From: Polytrichum commune
Lineage: Eukaryota; Streptophyta; Polytrichopsida; Polytrichales; Polytrichaceae
Reading direction: 5' to 3'
Length of the DNA stretch: 64,000 nucleotides
Assembly (NCBI GenBank): GCA_950295325.1
Contig: OX485803.1
Coordinates: 28,150,001 to 28,214,000, forward strand
Notes under the pieces: model-generated
What the model was told of the DNA's origin: nothing
The model's database searches: none
The model's input: the letters and a program-made list of their open reading frames with translations, nothing else
Made by a program: the position numbers and the translations under genes
Part shown: positions 9,280 through 64,000 of the stretch, piece by piece
Position numbering within the stretch: the first letter of the stretch is position 1
Layout of the letters: the number at the start of each line of letters is the position of its first letter

Positions 9280-10260
9280 GATTGGTTTGGGGTGGGCACA
9301 CTAGTGACCCTAAAGAATTCCTGAGTTTAGGATTACGCAACGGTTGCTGCTGTGTCTCTCGGCTCTCTCTCTCTATTCTCTCTCTCTCTCTCAGGTGGGA
9401 CGGCGGGAAGGCTGTAGAGGCCAGGCGAAGCCTCTGCCGGAATGCAGTTCGGGGAAGAGGCCGCTAAGGATTCAGGCTGCAAGGAAGATGCTTGGCTGCG
9501 AATGCAGCTAGGTAGCTCAGTGAGCCAGGAGGTAGAAGGGCTAGATTCCGAGTGGGCACTTGGCAATTCCCAAGTCTAGAGGTAAGGGCAAGGGAAGAGG
9601 AATCCCTGGTAACTGAGGGTGTAAGGGGGAAGCTCCCTCCGGCATTACAGATCTACTGAGAGGGTCGCGGAGGCATCAACAGGCGGCATTCTGGGATTTC
9701 CCTTGGTCAGGGAGAGAAGAAATCTGAGGCCCGAGGTCGGAGGAATTCAATTCGCCGTCACCCAATGTGACTCATTTCGGGTAGGATAAGAGGCTAGTTG
9801 GGTGCAGGAATTCGGTATGAGCTGGGCAATCTGGAGGTTTTAGTGGCAAGCGGGGGACGGCGATCAAATTGAGCAACATCCGAAGAGGGAAGCTCGGCTG
9901 TGCAGCTAAGTTTTGATGGAGGGGTTGAGTCTGGGCTAAGGAGCTCGGGCAACAATGCTGCCGGATTGCTAGAGCCTTGGGAAATCACACTCACGCCGAA
10001 TGCGGGCGATCCAGGTTCTGGGCTGGAGTGCCTACGTCAAGGAGCCCAACTTCAAGAGTCCTGGCAGTGGAAGAACGAGGGAAGGAGTGGGCAATCAAGA
10101 AGGTGATGGTCGGGACTGGCCAAAGACGACCCACCAGGGGGACTGGGAGGCAGCTGGGCGTTGCGGCAGGGGAGTAGGAACTGCAGAGTAAACCATTAAG
10201 TGTCCACAGCCGAGACTCACCAATATGAGGTTGGCCAACCGACTGCTGGTATTGGGAAGG
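9280..10260. other. GC-rich island with pyrimidine tract, no supported gene
   Basis: A kilobase of clearly higher GC than its flanks, opening with a (CT)n tract at about 9358-9393 of the kind common in plant 5' leaders. Several short frames on both strands cross it (for example the ATG at 9441, about 46 codons). None has a recognisable domain or a convincing splice partner. It lies immediately outside the left inverted repeat of the large element and could be a host promoter/first-exon region or part of that element's terminus. Confidence 0.3.
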
Positions 10261-10270
10261 GGAAAGTTAG

Positions 10271-10295
10271 TATGCGAGCGGAGAGCGGAGAGCGG
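10271..10295 (+). repeat. Left inverted repeat of the large element
   Basis: Begins TATGCGAGCGGAGAGCGGAG and continues with one more AGCGG. It matches the reverse complement of 25278-25302 with one difference (A versus T at position 12). A weaker partial echo (ACCGTGGAA words about 150 bases inside this end, and CCGTGGAA about 140 bases inside the other) hints that the original repeat was longer and has diverged. Confidence 0.65.
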
Positions 10296-11496
10296 CGATT
10301 TGGAGAGCGGAGAACTCCATTTGAGACATGAATTAAGAGGGGAAATGCACCTATAACCGTGAGATTATGGGTTTAGGGTAGAGCTATTTTAAGAAAATTT
10401 TATGAGTTAGGGTCTCTATTACCGTGGAAATAGAACAACATTTCCCCATTTGAAACGTTTACATATTTTTGAAACATATATATATTATAATAAAATACAA
10501 AATTAGGGCTTACATCACTATTACGTCATAAATACAATTACCAAACTTGTGTACTATAGTACATATCACTGTAAATCAAATAAAAATTACTATATGAAGG
10601 AAACACGAAGGAGGTATGTGAAAAGAATTCCCCACATATAGTCCACTCTATTAATGTTACACCTATAAATGTTAACCCTTTCTAATTGTTAACTTTATTC
10701 TACTCCCCACATATTGCACACTTTTAAATTTGACTCTATATATGTTAACGAATGAAATGCAACCATAACTACTCTTTGGAAAGACTACGTTTGGCTACGT
10801 TTAGTTCTAGTGACGGAAGTGTAAGAATGGAGGCACATGAGAACTTCCATTAGAAGGTACATGGAAACACGTTCATGTGGGTGTCCAAGTATGTGGGTTT
10901 GTTGGTGCAAATTGAGAAATATTTGCAAGTTGTGCATGCCCATGATTCATACTTCACCCATGATTTCTAAACTTCATATTGAATAAAGTTTTGATTGGGT
11001 TTGCAATTTTATGAATGGTATTCTCTTACAAGGACTCTTAAAAAATGCTTATATTTATAAATGTTAAGATTTGTATATTGGTCGATAAAACAATTTTATA
11101 ATTGGTAACTGTTAACACCTTAATAAATGTTAACTATGATCGTTTCCCGAGGGTTAACATTTGAGGGTGAACATTATAGAAAGTGTTGTGTGGTGTGCAA
11201 CTTAAGTATTATTGAGTATTTATGATTTAGTGAAACAAAGAGGAGGTGTGTGAGGCACCAACTTTATATTTGAATGGGTGGATGCTACATTAGCGGTTAA
11301 GATTGTGAGAGGCATACCGTTTAGGGATACTTGAACTATACTTAAGGGCTAATCCACAAACTAAAAATATTTACAATAATAATTGAAAAATGCAATGCGG
11401 GTTGACATTATGGGAATGAAATAAAGAAGAGCAAGTATGAGACTTGCGCCGGAAATCTAAAAGCCAAAAATAATACAACCCAATACAAAATGGAGT

Positions 11497-14400
11497 TCAA
11501 GGAATAAACTCATCCTCACTCTCCGAAGCACTTTGATCTATGTATCTAAGTACTCTTGGATCGTATCTCTCACGTGGACTAGAAGAGGCACTAGAGCTAT
11601 GGGAGGAGTATTTGGCATAAGCTACTGCCATATCCTCGGCATAAGAAGGAAGTCGCATGGTAGGACTAGTCGGCGAGCCGAAGTATTGATCCATCAGACT
11701 GCACCAACAGAGGAGAAATTACGATTGTTAGAATACTTCCAATCAAATGCAACATACTCAACATTAAGTTTAAGATGACAACAAACTTACTCACATAGAT
11801 TAACTGCACCCTGTTGAGGGAGGGCATCGTCGTCGTCCTCGTCAAGGTCTACAACGTGAGTTGGATCGACCCCTAGAGACTCCGAGGCTGCGACCTGTAT
11901 TGGGTGCAAAATTTCTTCGTACAATTCCTTGTCTCCCTCAAGTGCCACTATTGCCATGTTAGTAGATTGTGCTGCAAGAACCGAGGCACCTACAAAGAGC
12001 AAAACAAATGAATTAGTAGAAGGTGATTGAATTGCCTAAGTCTAGAGGCATGGGAATGTTACACAAATTACTCATACCAGTTCCAGCAGTGAGGTCACAT
12101 ATAATCCCGCCTGGAGGGCTAAGGCCACTGATTAGAAGCTGGAGCAGGGACACTGCCTTCTCTTTAGGGCCCCTCCAGAATGTGTCACCGTCGTTGCGCT
12201 TGAGTGCAGTATCAGAGGTGACAATGTTGAAAAGAACGTCATCATTTGCAAGGTCAACATCTTCAAATTTGTCACTGGAAGAAATAACAAACTCTTTGGG
12301 TGGCCTAAGCAAAGGTGTGGAGAAAGATCGAACCAACACGATTGCTTTGAATTTCAGAGTCTGGACATCAAACATAGGCCTCGAATTGTTAGCAATGTGA
12401 TTGAAAGTATGAATGACTTCGAACTTGAAGAGTGGGAAATGGCTACAATTACTCACCCGCTTAGAGTTATGCATAGGGTGAGTGAGGTGTAGAGAATTAA
12501 CGATGGTCCATTCCTCCTTGACCTCCAAGTTGTTGTTGTAGAGAAAGCTCAAGACCTCCTTCTTGATTTGCACACTGTCAGGATAAAATAAGAGGAGTGC
12601 GCCATCGTCGTGAAGATAGCCCTGACAAAAACCAATGGTGAACTTGATAAAGTTCTGAACCTGCTTATTCCAATTTGGAACTTGCCCCGGGAATTCAGAA
12701 ACTCCTGGGACAGGCAAACCATCAGGATACTCTGCAATGACGAGGTCCACCGCAGCCTTATGCAACACCTTGCCGAAGAAGAAGAATTCCCTGGATGCTC
12801 CAACCTAAAAAGAAAAAACCCGTGAACGGCATATCTCGAGAGGGTGCCGTCAACGAAAAATTTGATTTTCATTACCATATCAAGCATCCTAATATGACCA
12901 TTAACCAAGAATTAAATGAACGTAGCGGGTCCACCTATATGACCAACCTGAAATTTCTAACCATATTCGGTCATCCTAAACCTATTAGTGCATATCCAGG
13001 CCATATATGAGCACCAAAAAAATAAATAAAAAAGTCCCCCGAGGGGGGTGCCGTAAACGGCAACTCTCGGGGGCACCACATATTAACCTCAAAATCTTAT
13101 ATTTATGAGTGTATTATGCATCCTAATATGACCATTAACCAAGCTTTAAATGACCGTAACGGGTCCGAATATATGACCAACCTGAAATTTCTAGCCATAT
13201 TGACTTACCCTCAACCTTAGAGTGCATAAACAAGCCATATTCAAGCACCAGAAAAAAAAAAAAAAACCCCCGAGGGGGGTGCCGTTAACGGCACCTTTCG
13301 GGGGCACCACATTTTATCCTCACAATCTGATATTTATGAGTATATTATGCATCCTTATATGACCTTCAACCAAGACCAACATCAACTTAAGGGGGTCCGA
13401 ATATATGACCAACGAGCAATTTCTAGCCATATTGACTTACTCTCAACCTTAGAGTGCATAAACAGGCCATTTTCAAGCACCAAAAAAAAAAAAAAAAAAC
13501 CCCCGAGGGGGGTGCCGTTAACGGCACCTCTCAGGGGCACCACATTATAACCTCAAAATCTGATATTTATGAGTATATTATGCATCCTTATATGACCTTC
13601 AACCAAGACCAAAATCAACTTAAGGGGGTCCGAATATATGACGCACCTGAAATTTATGGCCATATTGACTCATCCTCAACCTTACAGTGTGTAGACATGC
13701 CATTTTCAAGCACCAAAAAATTCAAAAAAAAAACCCCCGAGGGGGGTGCCGTTAACGGCACCTCTCGGGGGCACCACATTATAACCTCAAAATCTGATAT
13801 TTATGAGTATATTATGCATCCTTATATGACCTACAACCAAGACCAAAATCAACTTAAGGGGGTCCGAATATATGACCAACCAGCAATTTCTAGCCATATT
13901 GACTTACCCTCAACCTTAGAGTGCATAAACAGGCCATTTTCAAGCACCATAAAAATAAAAATAAAAACCCCCGAGGGGGTGCCGTTAACGGCACCTCTCG
14001 GGGGCACCACAGTTTATCCTCACAATCTGATATTTATGAGTATATTATGCATCCTTATATGACCTACAACCAAGACCAACATCAACTTAAGGGGGTTCGA
14101 ATATATGACCAACGAGCAATTTCTAGCCATATTGACTTACTCTCAACCTTAGAGTGCATAAACAGGCCATTTTGAAGCACCAAAAAAACCAAAAAAACGA
14201 CCCCCGAGGGGGGTGCCGTTAACGGCACCTCTCAGGGGCACCACATTATAACCTCAAAATCTGATATTTATGAGTATATTATGCATCCTTATATGACCTT
14301 CAACCAAGACCAACATCAACTTAAGGGGGTCCGAATATATGACCAACCAGCAATTTCTAGCCATATTGACTCATCCTCAACCTCACAGTGTGTAGACAGG

Positions 14401-17400
14401 CCATTTTCAAGCACCAAAAAAATAAAAATAAAACCCCCAAGGGGGGTGCCGTTAACGGCACCTCTCGGGGGCACGACATTATAACTTGAAATTTCTAACT
14501 ATATTGAGTCATCCTTAACCATATAGTGCATAACCAGGCCATTTACAAGCACCAGATAAATTTAAAAAAAGTCATCCGAGGGGGGTGCCTTTAACGGCAC
14601 CTCTTGGGGGCACGACATTATAACCTTAAAATGAGATTTTCATTTGCATATTAAACATCCTAAGCAGACCATGGCGTTAAGGGAAGATGCATTTGGTGAA
14701 TAGAGGAAGGTGAGCCGAATTGAATGGGAATTAAGCAGAATATTTACCTCATTGAGAAAAGCAACCATGTCATCGTAAGTTGAAGGGAATTTGTTGTGCT
14801 TTGTCTTATAATCTAACATCATGTGGAAGGAGTCATTAAGTAAAAGAACCCGAGGAGAAGCAGGGGAGGAGTTGTATGCCTGGGATGAAGACATTGTCTT
14901 GACAGCAGGTGGGATGAATCTGATGGGATTGGATTCACCAGCAACTCCTAGGCGAATACGCTTTAGAGCAGATTCCCGCGGAGTATGTGAGATAAGAAGG
15001 TCCGCAAGTGAATCAGGTTGATCACCGATATCCTCTGTTACTTGAATATCTTCGTCCATTGGCTCCTCAACCACCTCAGCAGCCTTCCGCTTAGATACCC
15101 GAGGCCTACTCCCTGTAGTAGCTGTCTTGCTTTTGGAGGAGCCACCCATAGGAGGTGTAGGAGACTGTGAGACAGGAACTGATGCGGCGGGAGAAGGTAA
15201 GAGAGGTTGGATGGAGTCCCTGAGTGCGATGTCAAATGGAGGAGGCTTCTTGAACGGACAGTCCAAATACCATCCGCACTGTTGAAAATGGATTGGATCC
15301 CATGTCCTTATAATTGCAGTAGTGAACATGGAATCAGGGCTTTCGATATCCAGGTAGTTAGGAAAGAAAACGGGTACCTTAGAGATGGCCTTCCTCGGCA
15401 GGAGAACGTACCGAAAGTACCTGTAAAAGACCCTGCGGACAGCTTGAACGAAGAAAGGTTGCTTGTCCGGGGGGTTGTTCTTGTGAGCACCGTTATCTCC
15501 ACCTAATTCAACAAAGAATGCAATCTCCCAAAGTTGACACCTCATAGCCTCCACGTAATCGAAAATAGTTAGGATCGGATCTTCGCCATGGGGATTGTAG
15601 TCAACAACTTCTCCAAGATCTGTGAGAACACCCGAGAAGAGCTCCTCAGCCTCCACCGCAATCTGATGCCATGCGCAATTAGATATAGTATGAAAGGTTA
15701 AGGTTGATTTCCATAGCTCATTACTGGACATGCAAATGACAACATGAACTTTGAGATGAATGCTCACCTGCGCCCACCATGTTGCACGATTAAGCCACTC
15801 CGGGAACTTGGAGTCGGCGAAGGCAGTTTTGGGAAAGCGATGCGCATCCCGGATTGCCGCAGAGGAGTTCCACCTCTGGAGCCACTTAACCATCATTCTT
15901 GAAGGCATCGCTGAAGTAGCTAGCATATACAATTTCTCTTGAAGCATCTCAGGTTCATCAAACTTCTCATAATGAGCCTTCACTTCCTCTAGAAAAGCAG
16001 GAGTTAATTTAGGATCCGCGACAGGCAAATGCTTCCTGAGCTCCGCGACAAGCTTATCCTCCACCTTCTTCACAGCTTTCCTAACCCATTCCTCTGCATT
16101 ACGCTCCGTCCAATTGCTAGAATCTGGGTTCTTCATCTTGTACTTGTCCTCAGCGGCATGGGCAGCTTCTGCAATCTCTTGCTATAGGTCAAACAAACAA
16201 TACAATCAGTTACATGAATTGCATATGCATAATTCAAATGACACGATAATATTAGAGGTTGAGATTACCTGGTAAAGGACCGCATTGAGACCGTAAACGG
16301 TGAGGGTGAACCATGTGCGATGTTTCCCAGCCTGCTTCTCCCTTGCAGCCTCCAACATAGTCGGAGATACTAAACTCTCAAAGTAGGACAGTGGCTGGGG
16401 TGCTAGATTCTGTATGCGAAATAGCTTGTGAACTAGGTTTGTGGTGACGTGTGATTTTTTATTCTTCCTGGAAAACCAAAATATATATTAGAATGATGCA
16501 TGATTAAAAACAAAATTCAAAAGCATGGATTAGGATCTTACCAATTAACTTCGTACAGAGCGGCTATCACGGATGGAACGTCTCCTCTAGGTTCAAGGAT
16601 TACACCCTCAACACAGAAATGCCCATTAATATCATGAGGGTGAAATTGCTCAATGATAGGCATCCATGCTTGAAGCCGATGGTTCCCATCCCAAACCATG
16701 AACATCTTATTAGAAAATATCTTCAAATTGTCATCTGCAAGAAGTTTCTTCTTAAATTCGTCATTCACCTCCTTCCACTCCGAAGACCACTTGGCAACCA
16801 CATTGGGTGTCACGTCATTGGTGTGTCCATGGTGGTCCTCCAATGCCACATAAAAGAAACCACAGTCCTCCATGTAGCCATCAATCATAAAATGAATAGC
16901 AAGTTGAGATACATCATTTTTAAGAAACGGTCTCACAACAGGAAGAGGCATCATGCGACAAAGAGGGATAAAGAGACGACCCTTTTGTTTTGGTTGCCAT
17001 TTAAGTTTCTCAAGCCTAGATGCGGTTGGAACGCTCTCCTTAATGGAAAGGTCGTGAAGCTTGAGTTTCAACTGTCCATCTGTAAGGCGGACTTCATCTG
17101 AACAAAGGTCTCAGCATCAAAATACATTAGAAGTGATAAAAACTTGTCCTTAACTCCAAACAATTAAACTAAACCGCACTCTTAAACCTTAAAATCAGAT
17201 CAATAACCAAAACCTGAAGCTTCATAATCAAATAAAGAAAAAAAACCCATTAAGGGCCACCTGTAAGCGCAACGAGAAACCTCAAACCATATTCAGTCAT
17301 ACTAAGCCATACTCAGTTATCCTAATGTATAGAGTACATAAACATGCCATATACAAGCAACAAAAAAATAAAAATAAATACCCCCTAGGGGTTGCCGTTA

Positions 17401-19660
17401 ACGGCACCGCTCGGGGGCACCACATTACAACCTCAAAATCTGATATTTATGAGTATATTATGCATCCTTAGATGACCTTCAACCAAGACCAAAATCAACT
17501 TAAGGGGGTCCAAATTTATGACCAACCAGCAATTTCTAGCCATATTGACTTACCCTCAACCTTAGAGTGCATAAACAAGCCATTTTCAAGCACCAAAAAA
17601 ATAAATAAAAAAGACGCCCGAGGGGGGTGCCGTTAACGGCACCTCACGGGGGCACCACTTTATAACCTCAAAATCTGAACTTTATTAGCCGATTAAAGAC
17701 CCTGCTCATACAATTAACACAGATAAAAAACCTAGAGAGTCCACAAATATGAGCAATCAGGAATTTCCAAGAATATTCAGTAGTCTTAAACCTTATAATG
17801 CACAAAGAGGCCATATACAAGCATCAAAAAGATCAAAATAAAGTCCACTGAGGGGGTGCCGTTAACGGCACCCCTCGGGGTCACCACATTATAACCTCAA
17901 AATCTGATATTTATGAGTATATTATGCATCCTTATATGACCTTCAACCAAGACCAAAATCAACTTAAGGGGGTCCGAATATATGACCAACGAGCAATTTC
18001 TAGCCATATTGACTTACCCTCAACCTTAGAGTGCATAAACATGTCATTTTCAAGCACCAAAAAAATAAAAATAAAAACCCCCAAAGGGGGTGGCGTTAAC
18101 GGCACCCCTCGGGGGCACCACATTATAACCTCACAATCTGAACTTCACTCTCATATCAAGCACCATGTTCGGTCCTTCAACGAAGACCAAAATGAATTCA
18201 GGGGGTCCGAGTATATGACCCACCTGCAATTTCTAGCCATATTGACTCATCCTCAACCTTGCAGTGTATAGACAGGCCATTATCAAGCACCAAAATAATT
18301 AAAAAAAAAACCCCCGAGGGGGGTGCCGTTAACGGCACCTCTCGGGGGCACCACATTACAACCTCAAAATCTGATATTTATGAGTATATTGTGCATTCTT
18401 ATATGACCTTCAACCAAGACCAAAATCAACTTAAGGGGGGCCGAATATATGACCCACCTGAATTTAATGGCCAAATTGACTCATCTTCAACCTTACAGTG
18501 AGTAGACAAGCCATTTTCAAGCACCAAAAAAATAAAAAAAAGACCCCCGAAGGGGGTGCCGTTAACGGCACCTCTCGGGGGCACCACATTATAACCTCAC
18601 AATCTGATATTTATGAGTATATTATGCATCCTTATATGACCTTCAACCAAGACCAAAATCAACTTCAGGGGGTCCAAATATACGAGGCACCTGAAATTTA
18701 TGGCCATATTGACTCATCGTCAACCTTGCAGTGTGTAGACAGGCCATTTTCAAGCACCAAAAAAATAAAAATAAAAGCCCCTGAGGGGGGTGCCGTTAGC
18801 GGCACCTCTCGGGGGCACCACATTCTATCTTCACAATCTGAACTTCACTAGCATATCAAGCATCATGTTCTGTCCTTCAACCAAGACCAAATTGAACTTA
18901 GGGGGTCCGAATATATGAACCTGAGTCTCCGCTGGACACTTCGGGTTCCATCCTCGGCCTCCAAATCCTACCTCACCTTACAATCAAACCCTCAACAACA
19001 AAACCCTTCCACACCCTCGGGGGCACCCTAGAGCTCCAAAAGATTCCCTCAATTTTCAAAGTTGACTTCACTCCTTGGCTTTACCTTCAAACCCTAAACC
19101 CGTAAACCTTTGGACCCACTCGGGTGCACCCTAGGGCTCTAGAAAGATTCCCTCAATATCGAAATTTGACTGCACTACTAAGCCATACAATCACTTCCGG
19201 AGGGGTGCCCTTGACGGGTCCTATTTTTTGGCTACTCTAAGCCCACCACTTTTTGGGCTAACTTCTATTCCGCGTCTAAATTCTTTCAAAATTGTCAAGT
19301 TTAGGGTCCGAGGAACCAACCTTCTGGTTCCATCAAGTTCGTTTCTTCAACCTCTTCCTCGCCACTCTCCTCCTGCGATGCTGGATTGGATGCGGGATTG
19401 GACTCTGTCCCCACATCCTTTGATGCTTCTCGACACTGTGTTCCTGGGCTCTTGGATTTTGAGGGACCCAGAGATTCGTCTATCGTCGATAATGTTCCGT
19501 TCTCCTCAGTGTCGTCAAAATCTAAAACTTTGTTAATTCCACTAGTGTCATATGTTTCAGGCGCCACCTTCTTCCTCCCCATCCTGCTCGACTTCAATTT
19601 CTTAGTGCTACTGAAATATAACTTCCCTTTCTTCTTTCTCCTCTTGATAGGGGCCTGCAT
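11497..19660 (-). CDS. ParB-like / beta-class DNA methyltransferase fusion protein
   Basis: Eight exons join in phase: 19660-19321, 17097-16542, 16467-16269, 16181-15768, 15662-14748, 12804-12078, 11989-11791 and 11698-11497. All introns are GT-AG and the product is 1183 residues. Exon 1 (about 1-113) is basic (KRRKKKGK, a likely nuclear signal) then acidic. Exon 2 carries a ParB/sulfiredoxin-like domain: an FIPL...RPFL start and a VWDGNHRLQAW box near residue 250, the ParB nucleotide-binding GxxR motif. Exons 4-5 are helical, with a second basic stretch (RPRVSKRKAAE). Exons 6-7 form a methyltransferase in beta order: VDLVIAEYPDG (motif IV position, about 833), a GALLLFYPDS strand, then SPPGG-CDLTAGTGA (motif I, about 1044-1051) and VALEGDKELYE (motif II). 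The usual (D/N/S)PP(Y/W) tetrapeptide reads EYPD, so catalysis is doubtful while SAM binding may persist. The in-frame 105-base intron 4 could be retained. The weakest junction is the first donor (GTTGGT), supported by phase. ParB-methylase fusions are known in bacteria and phages; the role here is unknown. Confidence 0.8.
12822..14632 (+). repeat. 233-bp tandem array with palindromes, intron 5
   Basis: Eight clear units plus one degenerate unit at the left edge. Each has a CCCCCGAGGGGG-type block, the palindrome GGTGCCGTTAACGGCACC, then a CTCTCGGGGGCACCAC block, an AT-rich segment and a poly-A/AAATAAA run. GCCG landmarks fall at 13050, 13281, 13514, 13748, 13981, 14215, 14448 and 14586. Spacing is 231-234 bases except the last, truncated unit. 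The first unit has GCCGTAAACGGC and the last GCCTTTAACGGC, so edge units have lost perfect symmetry. The array fills the intron to within about 20 bases of the exon 6 acceptor, yet splice sites are intact. Confidence 0.9.
17250..18920 (+). repeat. 233-bp tandem array with palindromes, intron 1
   Basis: Same family and same orientation as the intron 5 array. Palindrome landmarks are at 17394, 17629, 17858, 18092, 18325, 18558 and 18792 (229-235 base spacing). Most keep the GTGCCGTTAACGGCAC core; 18092 reads TGGCGTTAACGGC and 18792 reads GCCGTTAGCGGC. A last vestige (CCGGAGGGGTGCCC) is near 19198. The array lies wholly inside the 2.2-kb first intron of the ParB-methyltransferase gene. Confidence 0.9.
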
Positions 19661-19901
19661 GTCACGTGTCACCCTTCCTGTGCATGTCTACTCCAACACT
19701 CGCAAACCCTCCCGTCAATCAAACACGTCTTACGCCTCTCATGAAATTCATAACTTTTGACACTAAGTGAAAGGATATGAGTTTCACGAAATCTAAGACA
19801 AGACTTTCCAGGTGTGACATTCCTTTATTTAATGCCTAATTGGGATTTCATTAGACTTCCTATTCCTGTCCTGAAACGTCATGCCTAATTATGATTTCAG
19901 G

Positions 19902-19908
19902 CTTTATA
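19902..19908 (-). promoter_or_regulatory. Candidate TATA box for the ParB-methyltransferase gene
   Basis: The minus strand reads GATATAAAGCC, a good plant TATA box, about 245 bases upstream of the exon 1 ATG (19660). The same 430-base interval separates this gene from the plus-strand promoter at 20091, so it would be a bidirectional control region. Confidence 0.4.
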
Positions 19909-19937
19909 TCGGCGCCAACTAATAATATGTAATTGCC

Positions 19938-20140
19938 TGTCAAGTAGTATGTCTACCATGACTTGTACTCTCTTATTTTGTATATCGTGACAGCGTTACA
20001 AATTTTAAAAATATTAATGTTACTCTCGTTTAGAGTACCTCCGTCATGTGGAGCTTGTGCATCGCAGTTCTCTTTTGGCAGCACATTCCTAATAAATAGG
20101 TAGCCCACAATGTTGAGATTCTTCTTTCATATTTCCATTG
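19938..20140 (+). promoter_or_regulatory. Promoter/leader copy 1, upstream of the 139-residue gene
   Basis: Contains TGTCAAGTAG-ATGTCTACCATGACTTG, a GTATATC-GTGACAGC block, the TATA box AATAAATAGG (20091-20100), then CCCACAATGTTGAGA and a CATATTTCC leader. The same blocks in the same order recur at 20846-21080 ahead of the transposase. The first ATG of the small protein (20319) lies about 195 bases below the expected transcription start. Confidence 0.65.
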
Positions 20141-20318
20141 TAATACATTCTAATCCTTCATGCTACAGTTTATCACAATTTACATAAATACATATTGACT
20201 CTATATTGATCTAACAGGTTATCAAATATTCTAAGTACATTGGTGTCTACCCTAAGTGTATATAATACCCGATTACTTGTACCCATTCCTTCATGTAATC
20301 TACTCATATTCTTCTCAA

Positions 20319-20738
20319 ATGGGTACTGACGCAAGTCCCCCCAACCTTCCTCCGTCAGGTGCTCCTAGTTCCTCTGGAATTCACACCAAGTTGACCATCG
20401 ATGGTTCTTCAGACGTCAACATCATTAAGATTGCCAACCCACATGACTGCTCAGTTCCTTCGGTTGTCGTCGTTCACACTCCTCAACCACATACTCCATC
20501 TTTGCAGGCAGATGTTGCAACGCTGAAAGAGGACAAGTCTACTTTACAAACTCATGCCTATTCTAGAGCAGGGGTTATTAAACCGGGCACTTACTCTAGA
20601 TCCCTGTTTAGGAATGCCAAAGGTCAGAAACTCGATTGCGCAGCATGCACTGCAGTTCATAGTTTGGGGATTGACCATTGTCATAAACATGACGGTGACA
20701 AATATGGCAAAGGGCCCCATAAGCGTATTCATTGTTAA
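20319..20738 (+). CDS. Small Cys/His-rich protein of the element
   Basis: A 139-residue open frame starting at the first in-frame ATG (MGTDASPPN). The N-terminal half is proline/serine-rich and disordered. Residues about 70-85 could form a short coiled coil (ADVATLKEDKSTLQTH). The C-terminus has a dense Cys/His cluster (CAACTAVHSLGIDHCHKHD ... HKRIHC) that could bind zinc. I recognise no family. It stands between the divergent ParB-methyltransferase gene and the transposase and has its own copy of the promoter used by the transposase, so the two are probably co-expressed. A DNA- or protein-binding accessory factor is an inference. It could also be a truncated duplicate of a larger gene. Confidence 0.55.
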   Translation: MGTDASPPNLPPSGAPSSSGIHTKLTIDGSSDVNIIKIANPHDCSVPSVVVVHTPQPHTPSLQADVATLKEDKSTLQTHAYSRAGVIKPGTYSRSLFRNAKGQKLDCAACTAVHSLGIDHCHKHDGDKYGKGPHKRIHC

Positions 20739-20845
20739 TAACAATGTTGCATTCTAATGTTTGGAATTTCCTATTCATGAGGTACTATCATGTTTAGTGT
20801 ATATGCATGTTATTGAATTCTACTATTTGAAAATAAATACTATCT

Positions 20846-21080
20846 TGTCAAGTAGAATGTCTACCATGACTTGACTGATATAATTTGGTATATCTTGACA
20901 GCCTTTCTGCTCCCTTTCAGACTCCTTGGTTTGGGGTGGGTCATTTTTAGAAGTATTTATTCATGCTTTCCTTCATCTTTCATCCGTCATTTGGATCTGT
21001 CCATCATTGTTGTCTTTGGCCATTCATTTCCAATAAATAGGTTTCCCACAATGTTGAGAAACCTCTTCCATATTTCCATC
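20846..21080 (+). promoter_or_regulatory. Promoter/leader copy 2, upstream of the transposase
   Basis: Repeats the blocks of 19938-20140 (TGTCAAGTAG-ATGTCTACCATGACTTG, GTATATCTTGACAGC, CAATAAATAGG at 21031-21041, CCCACAATGTTGAGA, CATATTTCC). The TATA box sits only about 20 bases before the ATG at 21051. Transcription should therefore begin beyond that ATG, which argues for the ATG at 21108 as the transposase start. Confidence 0.65.
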
Positions 21081-21107
21081 ACCGCGCAAGGCCTCATTCC
21101 CCTCATC

Positions 21108-24100
21108 ATGGCTCATGTGCCTGCTAACGGAGAAGTCGGTATGACAATCCTCAGAGCCGATGGAGAGAGAGTCCCACTTACCTTTTGCATGGATGACAGC
21201 GGACTAGCTTACGTGACGTCCCAACATCTAAGTATTCGGTTCGGTTTCAGAGCGGACACTATTGTTGTTGACGAGGATATTTTTGATGTTGTCACGTCCG
21301 AGCTTACACATACCCTAGGTCGCATTTCGCATCGTGATGAGAACAATAACATGTTTTGGACTCTTCATCCAGGTAGTTACCGAGTCTATGGCCTCACTGA
21401 ATCTCAGATGGCTGCTTCTACTGAGATCCTCACTCCTCGCTCTTCCTCTACCTGCACCATTCAAACTCCTCTGCCACGTGATGTGAAGGTCAAGCTCGAA
21501 CCCGGTCTCGAGACGCCTATTGTAGACAACTCTAGAGTAGAATCTGTAATTACACTTTCTTCAGATGACGAGGTCAGTCCCACCAAGCCCCCGCCTCAGG
21601 TTATAGTTGGTGGGGACGCTCCTAAAGTATATCATTTTTCGCAAGATACTGTTAGCATAGTACCATTATTAAAACAACTTGTAGCAATGCCGGGAAAAAA
21701 AAACATTCTTAAAAAAATAGACTACTCGGTGATTAGACACGAGAGGGTAGAGTACCTTCCTGCTTTGTTCGATGGTGCTGTCATCTTCGAGTTGCCACCC
21801 GTTGGTCATACGGCCGCACGGTCACAGGCCAAGTCTATGCAGGGAATGGACAAGCGTTACGACGGCCATGTGTGGACCAAGACCATCACCACCAACATCA
21901 CAAACGACTTTGGTTTGTCCTTCCGTTCTTCCTCCTGCGTTGCAAGAACAAGGAGTGCGAATATCTGATCCGCCGACCTCGTATTTTCGAAGTCAACGAG
22001 ACAGAGTTTGAAGGTTGTACCCTCCAAGCCTTTGTAGTGGATCAAGCACCCCCAACTGACTCTACGCTTATTTGCAAGGTGTGTAAAGAACCCCCGACAT
22101 GTATTGCTACATGTGGGGCTAAGATTTATAATTATGTTGTTGGCAAAATCAACCATACAAGAGCGTGTATCCACCTTGGAATTCACGATCACCCAGTCAA
22201 GGTGGGCGACTACAGAGACACTAAGGCTGAGATCAGTGGCCTAATTGAAGAACAGATCGAGAAGACTCCCCAGGCTACCAGGAGTGCGGTTGTGTTGGAG
22301 GCTAGCAAAGTTCTAATTGGCAGTTATCTCCTTCAACCCGATGACGCGCCAACAAAGAAGCTTTCTCTTGAGGAACTTGTTCCAGTATTCGACCGGTGCA
22401 AGGACATGGCTTCCCCAAACATCCGCAACAAGGTCATGAGCTTCCGTTTCCTCAGAAGGTATGGTGTCATGGACTCTATCACCAAACTCCGTGGAATCAG
22501 TTTATGGGCATTTGTGCAGGAGAACAAATTCCCAGGTCAAGGGGCAGATCTTGACAAGGTTTTTGTCTTTAAGATGTCGGAAGTCGGGCCTGGTAGTGGG
22601 GTAGACTTGGTGAAGCATATGCAGCCCGGCGAAGATCTGGAGAATGCTTGGATTATGTTCGACCATGTGAAACAGGTGAGACAGTGGATCACAATGGCAT
22701 GCCACGTGTATGACTCCACGTATTGTCGTGTCATGACCATTGCAAGCTGTGACATGCAATCGGAGGACTGTGATGCCCAGATCGTTTTCTGGAAGAATCT
22801 CAATGTTGTGATGGAGAGGAATGGCGTTGTCGATACCAACTTCAAGGGTTTCATGGCCGACAGCGCCCAGGCCAATTGGAATGCAGTTCGGGTCATATAT
22901 GGCAATGGGAAGAAGGAGGACCGCATGGATGACCGGGAAAGAACCTGTCAGTTTCACTGGACCCAATCTATGGTTAAGTATACCGAGAAATACATCCCCG
23001 AAGAACTCTGGGAGCAACACAAGAAGATGTGCCACCAATATAGGACCGCCAGGACCATGGACGAAGCGGAGAACCTGTACCACGGGCTACGTGCATGGTG
23101 GGTATCCGCCGGGGCAGTGACAGAGAAGGCACTTGACAAACTCGAGCTCTGGCTTGCATTCTGGCACTTCCGTTATCGCCAATGGGGAGGCTTCATGACC
23201 GGGGTATGTTCACCCTAAACTTGTTGTTTTTCTTTCTTTCTTTTCACTCTAATATGAAACAACTCTTCTCCAATTTCTAATTGCTTACACTATGTACACG
23301 CAGAAATTTACAGTAGAAGAACTAGCAGAAATGCCTTCATGTAATCTCGCCGAATCAATACACAACAAGTGGCTTCAATCGTCTGGAAACAGCGGCGGCG
23401 ACCTCTATGTTGCTACAGTGGACGACTTTGTTCAAGGCTTCCTTCAGGTTGTCAATTACTACCAGTTCCTGAAAGGCGATGTTGGCGGTACAGGCCCTAC
23501 AAAGAAAGAGCTCAAGCTAAGGTTGGCAGAGCGTAGGGCGAAGCAAACGGGTAATCCTTTAGTCCTCGAAGACCCCATGATGGACATGCCTGGAGCAGAA
23601 GAGTTCTGTACCCGGGTGCCTTATATGGCTGGGGAAGAGGTGTTCGGGTCCACGAAGCGCAAAGCAGAGCTACCTCTTGGAGCAGAAGAGGAGTCGCACA
23701 GACCTGATAAGGTCAACTTCTCACATCCCCGTGCCTCTAGTAGGGTTGTCCGGACTCGTTCCACTGACATGCCCATAATTGTTGAAGAGGAAGATTCCAA
23801 TGTCCCGGAAGTTGCACCCCCGGCGCCACATGCGGACGATATCGTCCCGTCCCCCATCCCCGTGGGACGGATCAGCCACGTCACTGCCGTCGAGGAGACT
23901 AGGGTGAACGTGAAGGAGTGGCACATCGCTCGGTTGCCAAAGACTTCTGCCAAATGTTGTTGGGCACAGAGAGCCGTCACCAAAAAGAAGTGTACTGAGA
24001 GAATCGTAAGGGGTGCAAAATCAACCCCTGCTCCTACGTACACCGGTCTATGGCACAACACTAGGAGAAATGTGAAAGAGACCACAGAGTTTTTCTTCTG

Positions 24101-24788
24101 CTCAGATGATATCCATAGGTGCGTTAAGGGTAGCAGGCGCAAATGGGTTGTTCAATACTCTGCGGAACAGGAGAGGCCAAGCATTCCGGATGTTTGGCCA
24201 GTGAAACTTGGGACTAACCTCAAGCAATGTGAGATCCTGGCCCTCGAGGCGGCCAGATTCCAACTGCCGCAGAAAGTGCCAGTCTCACCCAGAAGGCTCT
24301 TTTCCACTGCACCGTCTCCGGCAAATTTAGACTCCGTGCCGGTGCCAGCAGATGCGGACAGGTATCATGGGAAGAGAGAAGGGAAGTTCGTTAAGTGCAC
24401 CGCAACCCGTCCAAACCCTCAGCAGCGGTTATCCATGGGCTTTGCGGACTCCCTCAAAGCTCAACTCCGCTCGGTGACGATGATTCCTCACCCTGGCCAT
24501 GGCTGCATCATTGCGCTAGACTCGATGACGCCACCCGACGTGACACAATACCACATCACCATCAGTTCCCTCCCGGGTTGCACCTGCCCTGCATTCAAGA
24601 AGACAATGACCAACTTTCGAGGGCGGAGTCAATTCTCGTATTGCAAGCATGTTTACTATATTTTTTTAAAGGTCTGCCATCGCAATCCTGATGTAGACTT
24701 TTTCATCCACGCGCCAACCTTCAGCTTCAACGAGGTCAAAGTTATTCTCGAGAGTGGAATTTTAACTCACCCTTTAGATCGGGCCTAG
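21108..24788 (+). pseudogene. Mutator-like transposase with SWIM zinc finger, frameshifted
   Basis: Exon 1 is 21108-23203, a 100-base intron follows (GTATGT...CACGCAG, 23204-23303) and exon 2 is 23304-24788 (TAG). The frame breaks once, at about 21941: coding continues in the next frame exactly at CKNKECEYL, consistent with loss of one base. The N-terminal part has a sumoylation-type site (VKLEPG) and an acidic SUMO-interacting-type motif (VITLSSDDE). The catalytic region follows: MTIASCDMQSED, FKGFMADSAQANWNA and RTCQFHWTQSM, the D, D and C/H blocks of MULE transposases, with a likely E in DKLELWLAFW. Exon 2 has Cys pairs (KCCWAQ, FFFCSDDIHRC) and a C-terminal SWIM finger (CTCPAF ... CKH). 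This enzyme class cuts and joins element ends. If the frameshift is real, this copy is dead while its ParB-methyltransferase neighbour is open throughout. Confidence 0.8.
23204..23303 (+). other. Transposase intron
   Basis: The donor GGG|GTATGT and acceptor ACGCAG|AAA join codons G and K in phase 0, giving GGFMTG-KFTVEE. Without splicing the frame stops at 23216. Confidence 0.85.
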
Positions 24789-25277
24789 GATTTACTCTAA
24801 GTGTCCCTTTCTCCCATCAACATGATAGATGAAGTAGTGCCTATTCATCCATGCTTCTAATAGAGTACACCATATACTAAGTGATATAAGATTTTCATTG
24901 AATAATTAAATATTGTCAGCTCAAAAATATAATAAATATAATCCCATGGATTATTTTTATTCAGCTCAAAAAGTTGGATTACAATACTCAACCGTATCAT
25001 GTGTCTCTATACATATTGGGATCATCATTGGTTTTTATCATCTACTTAATTATTATATCACAATTTTACGATCATTTTGGCACTTCACGGTTCTCAAACT
25101 AAATCAGACCATTTCAAATTCAGGGCATTTATTTTATTTAATGCCCACACATTCCACGGAAATAGGTCCCAAAAATTTCTATTTCTGGCAGAATCTGGAA
25201 TATTATAAGTATATTCTTTTACTATTTTTAGGTAATTCTAAATTTAATGCAGAATCTATCCTATTTTTACCACATTT

Positions 25278-25302
25278 CCGCTCTCCGCTCACCGCTCGCA
25301 TA
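25278..25302 (-). repeat. Right inverted repeat of the large element
   Basis: On the minus strand it reads TATGCGAGCGGTGAGCGGAG and one more AGCGG, 24/25 identical to 10271-10295. It sits about 490 bases beyond the transposase stop codon and is followed by about 19 unassigned bases and then a left-truncated MITE. Confidence 0.65.
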
Positions 25303-25320
25303 CAAGCCTCGTCCAGATGA

Positions 25321-25629: not shown

Positions 25630-25631
25630 TA

Positions 25632-26364
25632 GTTGGTTACCCTTACTCTACTTACTAAATGACTAGTTGGCTACCCTTACTCTACTTACTAAATGACTAG
25701 TTGGTTACCCTTCCTCTACTTACTAAATGACTAGTTGGTTACCCTTACTCTACTTACTAAATAAGTAGTTGGTAAGCCTCTCCAATACTTTAACGCATCA
25801 AAGCTTAACTTCAAGACTTGCACATATACCACTCAAATATACATGTCCAATTAAGAAGAGTGACCATAAGTAGAATAAGGCTCACCAATTAGTTATTTAG
25901 TAAGTAGAGTAAGGGTAACCAACTAGTCATTTAGTAAGTAGAGTAAGGGTAACCAACTAGTCATTTAGTAAGTAGAGTAAGGCTAACCAACTAGTCATTT
26001 AGTAAGTAGAGTAAGGCTAACCAACTAGTTATTTAGTAAGTAGAGTAAGGGTAACCAACTAGTTATATAATAAGTAGGCATAGCCACTGGGCCCGCCTAG
26101 CCACTAGGCCCGACACCACCCTAAATCCGGCCTCCCCAAAAAAGACATGAGGCCCACGGCCCCACCCCGCCTTGGTGGCAAGCACCACCCCTGCCCCCCA
26201 CCCCACCGCCACCTAGGATCATTGAGGCCCTTGGATGGGCCTTGGTGGATCAACGGTCCGGATGCACCATGAAGAATCTCATGTATAGCGCCTCAGTGAC
26301 ACGACAACCGAACCGGCAAAAACGTGTGAATCTAGCCAAAAAAGGTGTGGAAATAGCGATCCCC
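25632..26364. mobile_element. Foldback element, copy A (left arm truncated)
   Basis: The left part is about four direct copies of a 34-base unit (ACTAGTTGGTTACCCTTACT plus CTACTTACTAAATG). After a ~120-base spacer the same unit recurs five to six times inverted (to about 26070), so the centre can fold on itself. The right terminal region (GC-rich, ending GGTGTGGAAATAGCGATCCCC at 26364) matches both ends of copy B at 49358-51142. The corresponding left terminus is absent. Confidence 0.7.
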
Positions 26365-63350: not shown

Positions 63351-63383
63351 CATTTTTGATATTATCGGTGCAGGCAAATCCAA

Positions 63384-63979
63384 ATGGGAAAAAGAGGGAG
63401 CTCTTCATTCGAAAATGAAATAAATGAAAACAAAAAACAAAAACAAAGTGCTTCATTTGAAAAAGAAAAAGAAACAAAAACGGAGGATGTCAACAAAGGG
63501 ATGGAGCTTGATTCACAAGATGTGAGCCCAGAGGCATTGGGCTATTATGATGTTTTTTTGAACCACCGTGGACCGGATGTAAAACGTTCCTTTGTTTCGC
63601 ACTTGTATAAATCACTTCGTGATCGTGGTTGTAATCCATTTTTGGATGCTAAATCTCTTATTAAGGGTAACCATGCCTGGAACTCCATCAATGAGGCTCT
63701 CCATGGGGTTCGTGTGCATCTTGCAATATTTTCTAAGGGTTATGCTGAATCAAAATATTGTCTTAACGAGCTGGTTGATATGATGAAAAGCCCCAAGAAG
63801 GTTATCCCTGTGTTTTTTGAAGGTGTTGAGCCTGGGCATCTTCGTTTGATCGAAAGTGGACCCTTGGCTAAGGCTTTTGAAAAGCACTTGGGAAAGAATC
63901 GAGACGAGGATGTAAAGAGGTGGAAGAGTGCCCTATTGGAAGCTTCTCATCTTACAGGATTTCGATATTCCGATTACAA
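63384..63979 (+). CDS. TIR-domain immune receptor, first exon (partial)
   Basis: ATG at 63384 opens a lysine/glutamate-rich leader of about 50 residues and then a plant TIR domain from about residue 54: YDVFLNHRGPDVKRSFVSHL (alpha-A/BB region), FLDAKSL, IFSKGYAESKYCLNELVDMM and VIPVFFEGVEP. The glutamate of CLNEL, at the position of the catalytic NADase residue in plant TIRs, is present. The exon ends at AA|GTAAGC (63979), phase 2, and the window stops 21 bases later, so NB-ARC and LRR exons, if any, are outside. TIR receptors detect pathogen effectors and signal by NAD-derived molecules. An acceptor-like TCGGTGCAG lies 14 bases before the ATG, suggesting a 5'-leader intron. It could also be a TIR-only gene. 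Confidence 0.85.
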
Positions 63980-64000
63980 GTAAGCACCATATGGACCTCT

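Follow-up and report, generated by a model that had tools for sequence, protein, structure and literature searches.

A methyltransferase-fold gene with a ParB-like box in a two-gene transposon of the moss Polytrichum commune, with palindromic arrays as candidate recognition sites

What is an intron-bearing gene that joins a ParB-like box to a DNA methyltransferase fold doing in the genome of a moss? The question is raised by a locus on the minus strand, at 11497-19660, of a 64,000-nucleotide stretch of Polytrichum commune DNA (assembly GCA_950295325.1, contig OX485803.1, positions 28,150,001 to 28,214,000), here called the window, to which coordinates refer unless another locus is named. An initial annotation had described a single plant gene in a mobile-element context, captured long ago from a prokaryote or phage. 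We find that the gene lies, together with a second gene in divergent orientation, in a transposon with terminal inverted repeats, of which hundreds of whole or partial copies are present in the host genome. Its C-terminal half matches the beta-class methyltransferases, tandem arrays of a long palindrome lie in its introns, and we tentatively propose that the encoded protein recognizes its own element at these palindromes.

The transposon and its accessory gene

The gene, below called the accessory gene, lies between the terminal inverted repeats of a two-gene transposon with copies throughout the genome and with target-site duplications, so that the mobile-element context is confirmed. The idea of a lone captured gene is ruled out by the many element copies; what was captured, if anything, now serves as the accessory gene of a transposon with several families. 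The features of the element, with the evidence for each in brackets, are as follows.

10259-25314, no strand: whole transposon copy, 15,056 bp (points where copies cease matching)
10259-10303, plus strand: left terminal inverted repeat (inverted-repeat search, 10270-10303; copy ends)
25270-25314, minus strand: right terminal inverted repeat (inverted-repeat search, 25270-25303; copy ends)
20856-24788, plus strand: SWIM-type, putatively MULE-like transposase gene (opposite strand to the accessory gene, divergent)
19321-19660, minus strand: accessory gene exon 1, basic N-terminus (splice model; related exon-1 reading frame in L009)
16542-17097, minus strand: exon 2, ParB/Srx-like region with the DGNHRLQAW box (splice model, alignments)
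16269-16467, minus strand: exon 3 (splice model; both flanking intron positions common to L055)
15768-16181, minus strand: exon 4 (splice model; both flanking intron positions common to L055)
14748-15662, minus strand: exon 5 (splice model)
12457-12804, minus strand: exon 6, methyltransferase motif IV region, AEYPDG replacing DPPY (splice model, CcrM alignment)
12078-12360, minus strand: exon 7, motif X and the beginning of motif I (splice model, PF01555 match)
11791-11989, minus strand: exon 8, remainder of motif I and motif II, LEGD (splice model, CcrM alignment)
11497-11698, minus strand: exon 9, C-terminal tail and stop (tail kept in L001, L005 and L007)

The exons splice in frame, with GT..AG borders at all eight introns, and both DGNHRLQAW and the CDLTAGTGA loop, which is reconstituted across an exon junction, were located in the spliced gene as had been described. 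The earlier model of eight exons and 1183 codons was right in that the exons join without a stop, but its exon count does not hold: it keeps the 96-nt in-frame stretch 12456-12361, and in the relatives L007 and L054 the reading frame meets a stop in the matching stretch. We therefore treat this stretch as an intron and the gene as one of nine exons encoding 1151 amino acids.

That the exons form a single gene, beyond what chance would give, is argued by the many matches to exons 2-3 in the genome and by a homolog, L055 (CADCWO010000058.1), that has intron positions in common with it. This homolog is a 4.1-kb stretch filed under a Synechococcales (cyanobacterial) metagenome bin and holds an open gene of at least 1030 codons that runs off the contig and has five GT-AG introns, four of which agree with introns of the window gene in alignment column and in phase; 272 of the 971 aligned residues are identical. 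Because of these introns we judge L055 to be misbinned eukaryotic DNA, and the shared positions imply that any capture of the gene would be old.

The exon 2-3 query gave at least 199 matches in the host genome (best 150 of 1659 candidates scored, with some copies matching in two pieces), the methyltransferase query at least 226 (best 150 of 1636), a ParB query from family G of the element at least 150 (best 150 of 1085) and the transposase query at least 139 (best 139 of 1797); these are not counts of copies, as one copy may match in pieces. The ParB-like and methyltransferase parts occur together in families A, B, D, F, G, G2 and G3 and in L055, family C being seen by its ParB part only and family H by its methyltransferase part only (the family H region L087 is the upstream side of a methyltransferase reading frame, in a region without a verified ParB exon). 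The ParB exons encoded at four family-G loci are identical, which suggests that they spread recently. Many copies contain stop codons, and others are as open as that of the window.

Among the ten copies whose flanks were read, seven have an exact 10-bp target-site duplication and one a duplication matching at 9 of 10 bp; the window copy and one other have none. The second gene contains a SWIM-type CxC...CxH motif within a layout that we take to be MULE-like, that is, resembling Mutator-like elements. Against Pfam it matched SWIM only, below the cut-off (E=0.14-0.17), with weak off-target matches besides and no MULE or Mutator profile. From the target-site duplications, the terminal inverted repeats and the motif layout we infer a MULE-like transposase. 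Duplications of 8-11 bp together with terminal inverted repeats characterize MULE elements, whose duplication lengths are tabulated in the available part of PMC6446971, and the present transposon has both. The transposase frame of the window copy changes near 21,935-21,962, and in several other copies this gene is an open exon of 762 amino acids. In one family-B region (L005:7396-8786) a second transposase homolog, with a core about 60% identical, lies convergently behind the accessory gene, besides the divergent one upstream.

The two halves of the encoded protein

The predicted beta-class methyltransferase fold was borne out by profile searches. All six family members matched PF01555 with E values of 0.1 or less (3.5e-9 at best), the window domain alone scoring 22.3-22.7 bits, below the cut-off of 26.7; the best match was CcrM (6pbd; E=4.6e-9 over positions 12-230 of the 240 in the profile), and five of the six also matched PHROG methyltransferase family 3008. 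The motifs stand in the order IV-X-I-II, and motifs I and II for S-adenosylmethionine (SAM) are retained. The catalytic motif IV of beta-class enzymes reads [DNS]PP[YFW]. This form occurs in none of the 20 copies read, for which reason a canonical active site was rejected; 18 copies fit [DEQ]xP[DE], and the other two have DIPY (L031) and DISE (L051). The variants include AEYPDG, ADYPDG, LQFPDG, AD[IL]PE[GN] and VDIP[DE]G, with FDVPED in L055, and the altered motif aligns with the CcrM stretch that surrounds its catalytic motif. The 20 copies include members of the same families and are thus not independent, and the motif IV search pattern itself selects P[DE][GN]; at those loci, however, a tblastn search with the whole gene finds one and the same exon for the methyltransferase. 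The copy L031 (C1:9662150, family H) has DIPYG, whereas DIPDG stands at this position in L030 and L053, its close relatives.

Between hand-chosen, stop-free methyltransferase exons, the ratio of nonsynonymous to synonymous substitution rates (dN/dS) was 0.090-0.280 in the five of nine pairs that were not saturated. On this evidence from sequence comparison, the C-terminal half is shown to have a beta-class methyltransferase fold in which DPPY has been replaced, under purifying selection. Since the motif IV site is conserved, constrained and non-canonical, a SAM-binding reader or an unusual enzyme fits better than decay.

An unusual enzyme could mean that the protein methylates adenine at N6 or cytosine at N4 and so marks its own transposon, its altered motif IV still being functional. 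The retained SAM motifs and constrained exons are in line with this, as is the one copy that reads DIPY, and the available text of PMC12477816 suggests such an activity for a protein of Ectocarpus. We nevertheless consider it unlikely, given that [DNS]PP[YFW] is absent from all copies read and that it is the altered motif that aligns with the catalytic stretch of CcrM.

For the N-terminal half the picture is less clear. Exon 2 contains P-x-x-V-R-P and DGNHRLQAW, and the box of the ParB/Srx superfamily is of the DGxHR or GxRR type. GNHR is invariant in an alignment (A3) whose rows had been picked by this very box and which omits L037, L041 and L042 as near-duplicates. Of the 12 ParB regions fetched, L044-L046 lacked a stretch that bears the box and is free of interruptions: stops occur in L044 and L046, which retain DGNHR, and L045 reads DDNYR. 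The ParB domain of the initial annotation was not upheld by searches against Pfam, NCBIfam, PHROGs and the PDB, which were empty or off-target (in Pfam, Phage_tube_C at E=0.0032, under the cut-off), nor by hhalign comparison with phage ParB, which 14-17 of 150 shuffles equalled. Against DUF1015, presumably a ParB/Srx relative, hhalign gave a weak match that 0 and 1 of 150 shuffles equalled, at probabilities of 7 and 3%, this family having been chosen post hoc after a weak Pfam match (E=0.052). AlphaFold2 models from one or two sequences had mean predicted local distance difference test scores of 32.5 and 39.8 and were too poor for fold comparison. The dN/dS of hand-chosen, stop-free ParB exons was 0.079-0.249 in five of 12 pairs, two of which were near saturation, the other seven being saturated. 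The ParB label is therefore provisional and rests on the DGNHR box.

Pattern scans of viral contigs, one scan of genome contigs and a tblastn search of phages revealed no relative of the fusion in prokaryotes or viruses. The viral scans with A2, A1 and a DNA pattern for DGNHRxxAW gave no clear relative; a short box-bearing reading frame (L079) reached E=0.0023 with HMMER in a small local set and had no Pfam match. The genome-contig scan returned only L055, and tblastn with a ParB exon gave nothing below E=1 in phages. The fold is of prokaryotic type, but because no source appeared in these scans, capture from a prokaryote is still something we infer. A separate observation is a 501-amino-acid ParB-methylase fusion with DPPYG on a 61-kb contig of genome G000 (C12:28827-30332; L029:328-1833), perhaps bacterial or phage contamination, with relatives 75% identical in IMG/VR (L032) and 37% identical in a Desulfofustis phage.

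Palindromic arrays and a possible self-recognition system

Two introns of the accessory gene contain tandem arrays, identified by repeat and palindrome searches, that share one palindrome.

17333-18918, no strand: array of 233-bp tandem units in intron 1, containing the palindrome GGTGCCGTTAACGGCACC
12877-14485, no strand: array of 234-bp tandem units in intron 5, likewise containing GGTGCCGTTAACGGCACC

This perfect palindrome occurs in the window arrays in 10 exact copies and 15 within two mismatches. In the whole genome it has 259 exact sites, against 0 for its own pattern read backwards as a control, and among the sites listed (50 of the 259) it forms five clusters, all on contig C1 and each within the mapped ends of elements. 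Of ten families read, about six have a family-specific long palindrome in tandem arrays, in the introns of the accessory gene or on its upstream side: AGGGTGGCCGTTGACGGCCACCCT in family C, AAACCCTGTGCGTTAACGCACAGGGTTT in D, CTGTCGGATCCGACAG in G, GGTGGTGGTCGG-GT-CCGACCACCACC in G2 and GTGTCTCGG-TC-CCGAGACAC in G3, with a weaker one in H. Likewise, an array in L055 has a 32-bp palindrome, GAAATTGGGTCTCGGATCCGAGACCCAATTTC, in its consensus unit just upstream of the first ATG, and the 10-bp core TCGGATCCGA is common to L055 and family G. The palindrome of L006 derives from the consensus unit of its array. At element loci, 19 of 26 arrays (25 if the two halves of one array in L009 and L010 are counted together) contain an inverted repeat that no more than 2 of 200 shuffles equalled, compared with one of five control arrays, two from the rest of the window and three from 59.4 kb at six fixed places.

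We propose that the accessory protein would bind its own element at the palindromes, as ParB binds parS, that bound SAM and/or the methyltransferase fold may then serve to change the element's chromatin or methylation state, and that the element could thereby escape host silencing, like VANC does for VANDAL elements. We favor such self-recognition because the element combines the algal ParB-methyltransferase design with the tandem-repeat design of VANC, both of which are compared below, and we put its probability at roughly 0.45; the binding, the use of SAM and the effect on silencing are all suppositions within that figure. The two-gene architecture, the mapped ends with their target-site duplications, the methyltransferase fold, the purifying selection on stop-free exons and the palindromic arrays, that of L055 included, speak for it.

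Several observations weigh against this proposal. The searches with the ParB part came back empty or off-target, and only 50 of the 259 palindrome sites were placed relative to elements. The family-B regions read (L005, L083) have no array, the inverted repeats of A2 (L007) and F (L008, L085) are imperfect and were matched by 10-28 of 200 shuffles, and neither L081 nor one array each of L082, L087 and L088 has a palindrome. One of the control arrays, that of L092 with its 45-bp unit, likewise did better than every shuffle. Any chance palindrome is multiplied when an array spreads in tandem, so that copies within one array are not independent, and array and gene sit in the same cassette, so that their co-inheritance is no proof of recognition. 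Furthermore, the array and palindrome search gave nothing in L084, and exact palindromes of at least 10 bp in at least three copies were absent from L001, L005, L006 and L008. In a tree of the ParB domain the type of palindrome core seemed to follow the ParB grouping; the labels of five rows (L036, L038, L039, L040, L043) were imputed from family and the long branches are unsafe, and we do not rely on it.

The cassette itself appears to have moved. Compared with the window, a family-G element (L009/L010) is 91.7% identical in the transposase half (4.47 kb, 20844-25293), 83-89% and 73% identical at the left end and 73% identical over 19525-20138, with no DNA match between 11310 and 19525. The transposase core has a synonymous divergence (dS) of 0.15, but in the accessory gene the synonymous sites are saturated (synonymous differences per site, pS, 0.79-0.81). 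In family F (C3:48373827) a ParB exon 37% identical to that of the window lies 12.3 kb from a transposase that is 96% identical. Faster protein evolution alone would not saturate synonymous sites, and one of the two halves has therefore probably been exchanged between elements. The full picture, in which a SAM-binding methyltransferase fold whose replaced catalytic motif is conserved reads palindromes in its own introns as in a parS-like system, controls the epigenetic state of a eukaryotic DNA transposon and is exchanged, gene and array together, between elements sharing one transposase, is a bolder proposal that we hold to be rather doubtful.

The accessory protein might instead be a cofactor of transposition, acting either jointly with the transposase or at the ends of the element, for which the second gene of MuDR is a model, the palindromes being incidental minisatellites. 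The gene arrangement would suit such a role, as a listed ParB exon lies within 12 kb of at least 71 of the 139 transposase matches (65 divergent, three convergent and three on the same strand), where random placement of the 138 transposase matches on large contigs predicts 2.4 pairs, 0.65 of them divergent. This count took in 142 and 146 ParB places from the window exon 2-3 and family-G lists and all 139 transposase places, leaving out second pieces of copies and ParB matches on small contigs; a few ParB loci stand in both lists with slightly different starts, and F elements, just beyond the limit, scored as having no partner. The terminal inverted repeats and 10-bp duplications also indicate that whole elements have transposed. 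However, transposases 96-97% identical to that of the window adjoin F and G accessory genes with ParB exons only 34-37% identical, so that a partner-specific contact is unlikely, and the palindrome has its 259 sites against none for the control pattern. A cofactor role thus seems improbable to us.

MULEs take up fragments of host genes (PMC6446971, available part), and with stops in many copies the gene could be a host or bacterial passenger of the Pack-MULE type without function for the element, but the low dN/dS between stop-free copies has largely refuted this, and the joint occurrence of both domains across families and the intron positions common to L055 make it more improbable still. That it is a host gene adjoining a transposon, and domesticated from one, is most improbable, for although the window gene is open next to a frameshifted transposase and in a copy that has no target-site duplication, it lies between the terminal inverted repeats, its exons 2-3 have at least 199 matches and other copies are equally open.

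Two further features of the window lie outside the element: 34-bp tandem arrays that form a 150-nt inverted repeat at 25630-26077, just beyond the right end of the transposon, and at 63360-63983 a TIR-domain-like reading frame that we take to be similar to plant resistance-type proteins.

Comparison with known systems

Bacterial and phage ParB-DNA methylase fusions such as L029 resemble the accessory protein in that a ParB-type part comes first and a methyltransferase second, with motif IV before motif I. They differ in having ECDPPYG and a ParB part recognized by Pfam, both of which the transposon protein lacks, and in lacking its long middle region. CcrM and other beta-class amino-methyltransferases align with it over motifs X, I and II, whereas DPPY is replaced here. 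Cytosine methyltransferases captured by retrotransposons have been described in dinoflagellates and charophytes (PMC5890265, available part), and these are likewise DNA methyltransferases carried by transposons, also in the green lineage; they are of the C5 type, and both the fold and the class of element are different here.

The closest published design is that of Sola1-1_Ec32 in Ectocarpus, where a gene with ParB-like and N4C/N6A methyltransferase parts lies opposite the transposase, with green and red algal cases also cited (PMC12477816). The algal protein is of similar length (1104 amino acids there, 1151 here), and in the moss, too, one protein encoded opposite the transposase joins both parts, its ParB half being provisional. 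By the published description, the algal element belongs to Sola-1, whereas the present one is a MULE-like element of a land plant, and palindromic arrays and an altered motif IV, both present here, have no mention for the algal elements in the available text. Among the papers listed by our literature search we recognized no report of a ParB-methyltransferase transposon gene in land plants. ParB-methyltransferase accessory genes have thus already been reported for algal transposons, and, as far as these sources go, it is the palindromic arrays that appear to be new.

The arrays recall instead the VANDAL elements of Arabidopsis, in which VANC binds short motifs in tandem repeats that differ between related elements and induces loss of methylation (PMC5735166). 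Both systems consist of a transposon, of the MULE group there and MULE-like here, with an accessory gene; the target motifs of VANC lie in noncoding tandem repeats (PMC5735166, PMC13317346; available parts), to which the palindromic arrays may correspond. The differences, again by description, are the long palindrome and the methyltransferase-fold protein in the moss. Our findings would extend transposon-borne ParB-methyltransferase genes from algae to a land plant and a MULE-like element, and the family-specific palindrome, with all its listed sites inside elements, offers a concrete candidate target. If the protein does bind there, it would offer a second design for anti-silencing next to that of VANC, and a reader with a methyltransferase fold that is specific for sequence and possibly not catalytic.

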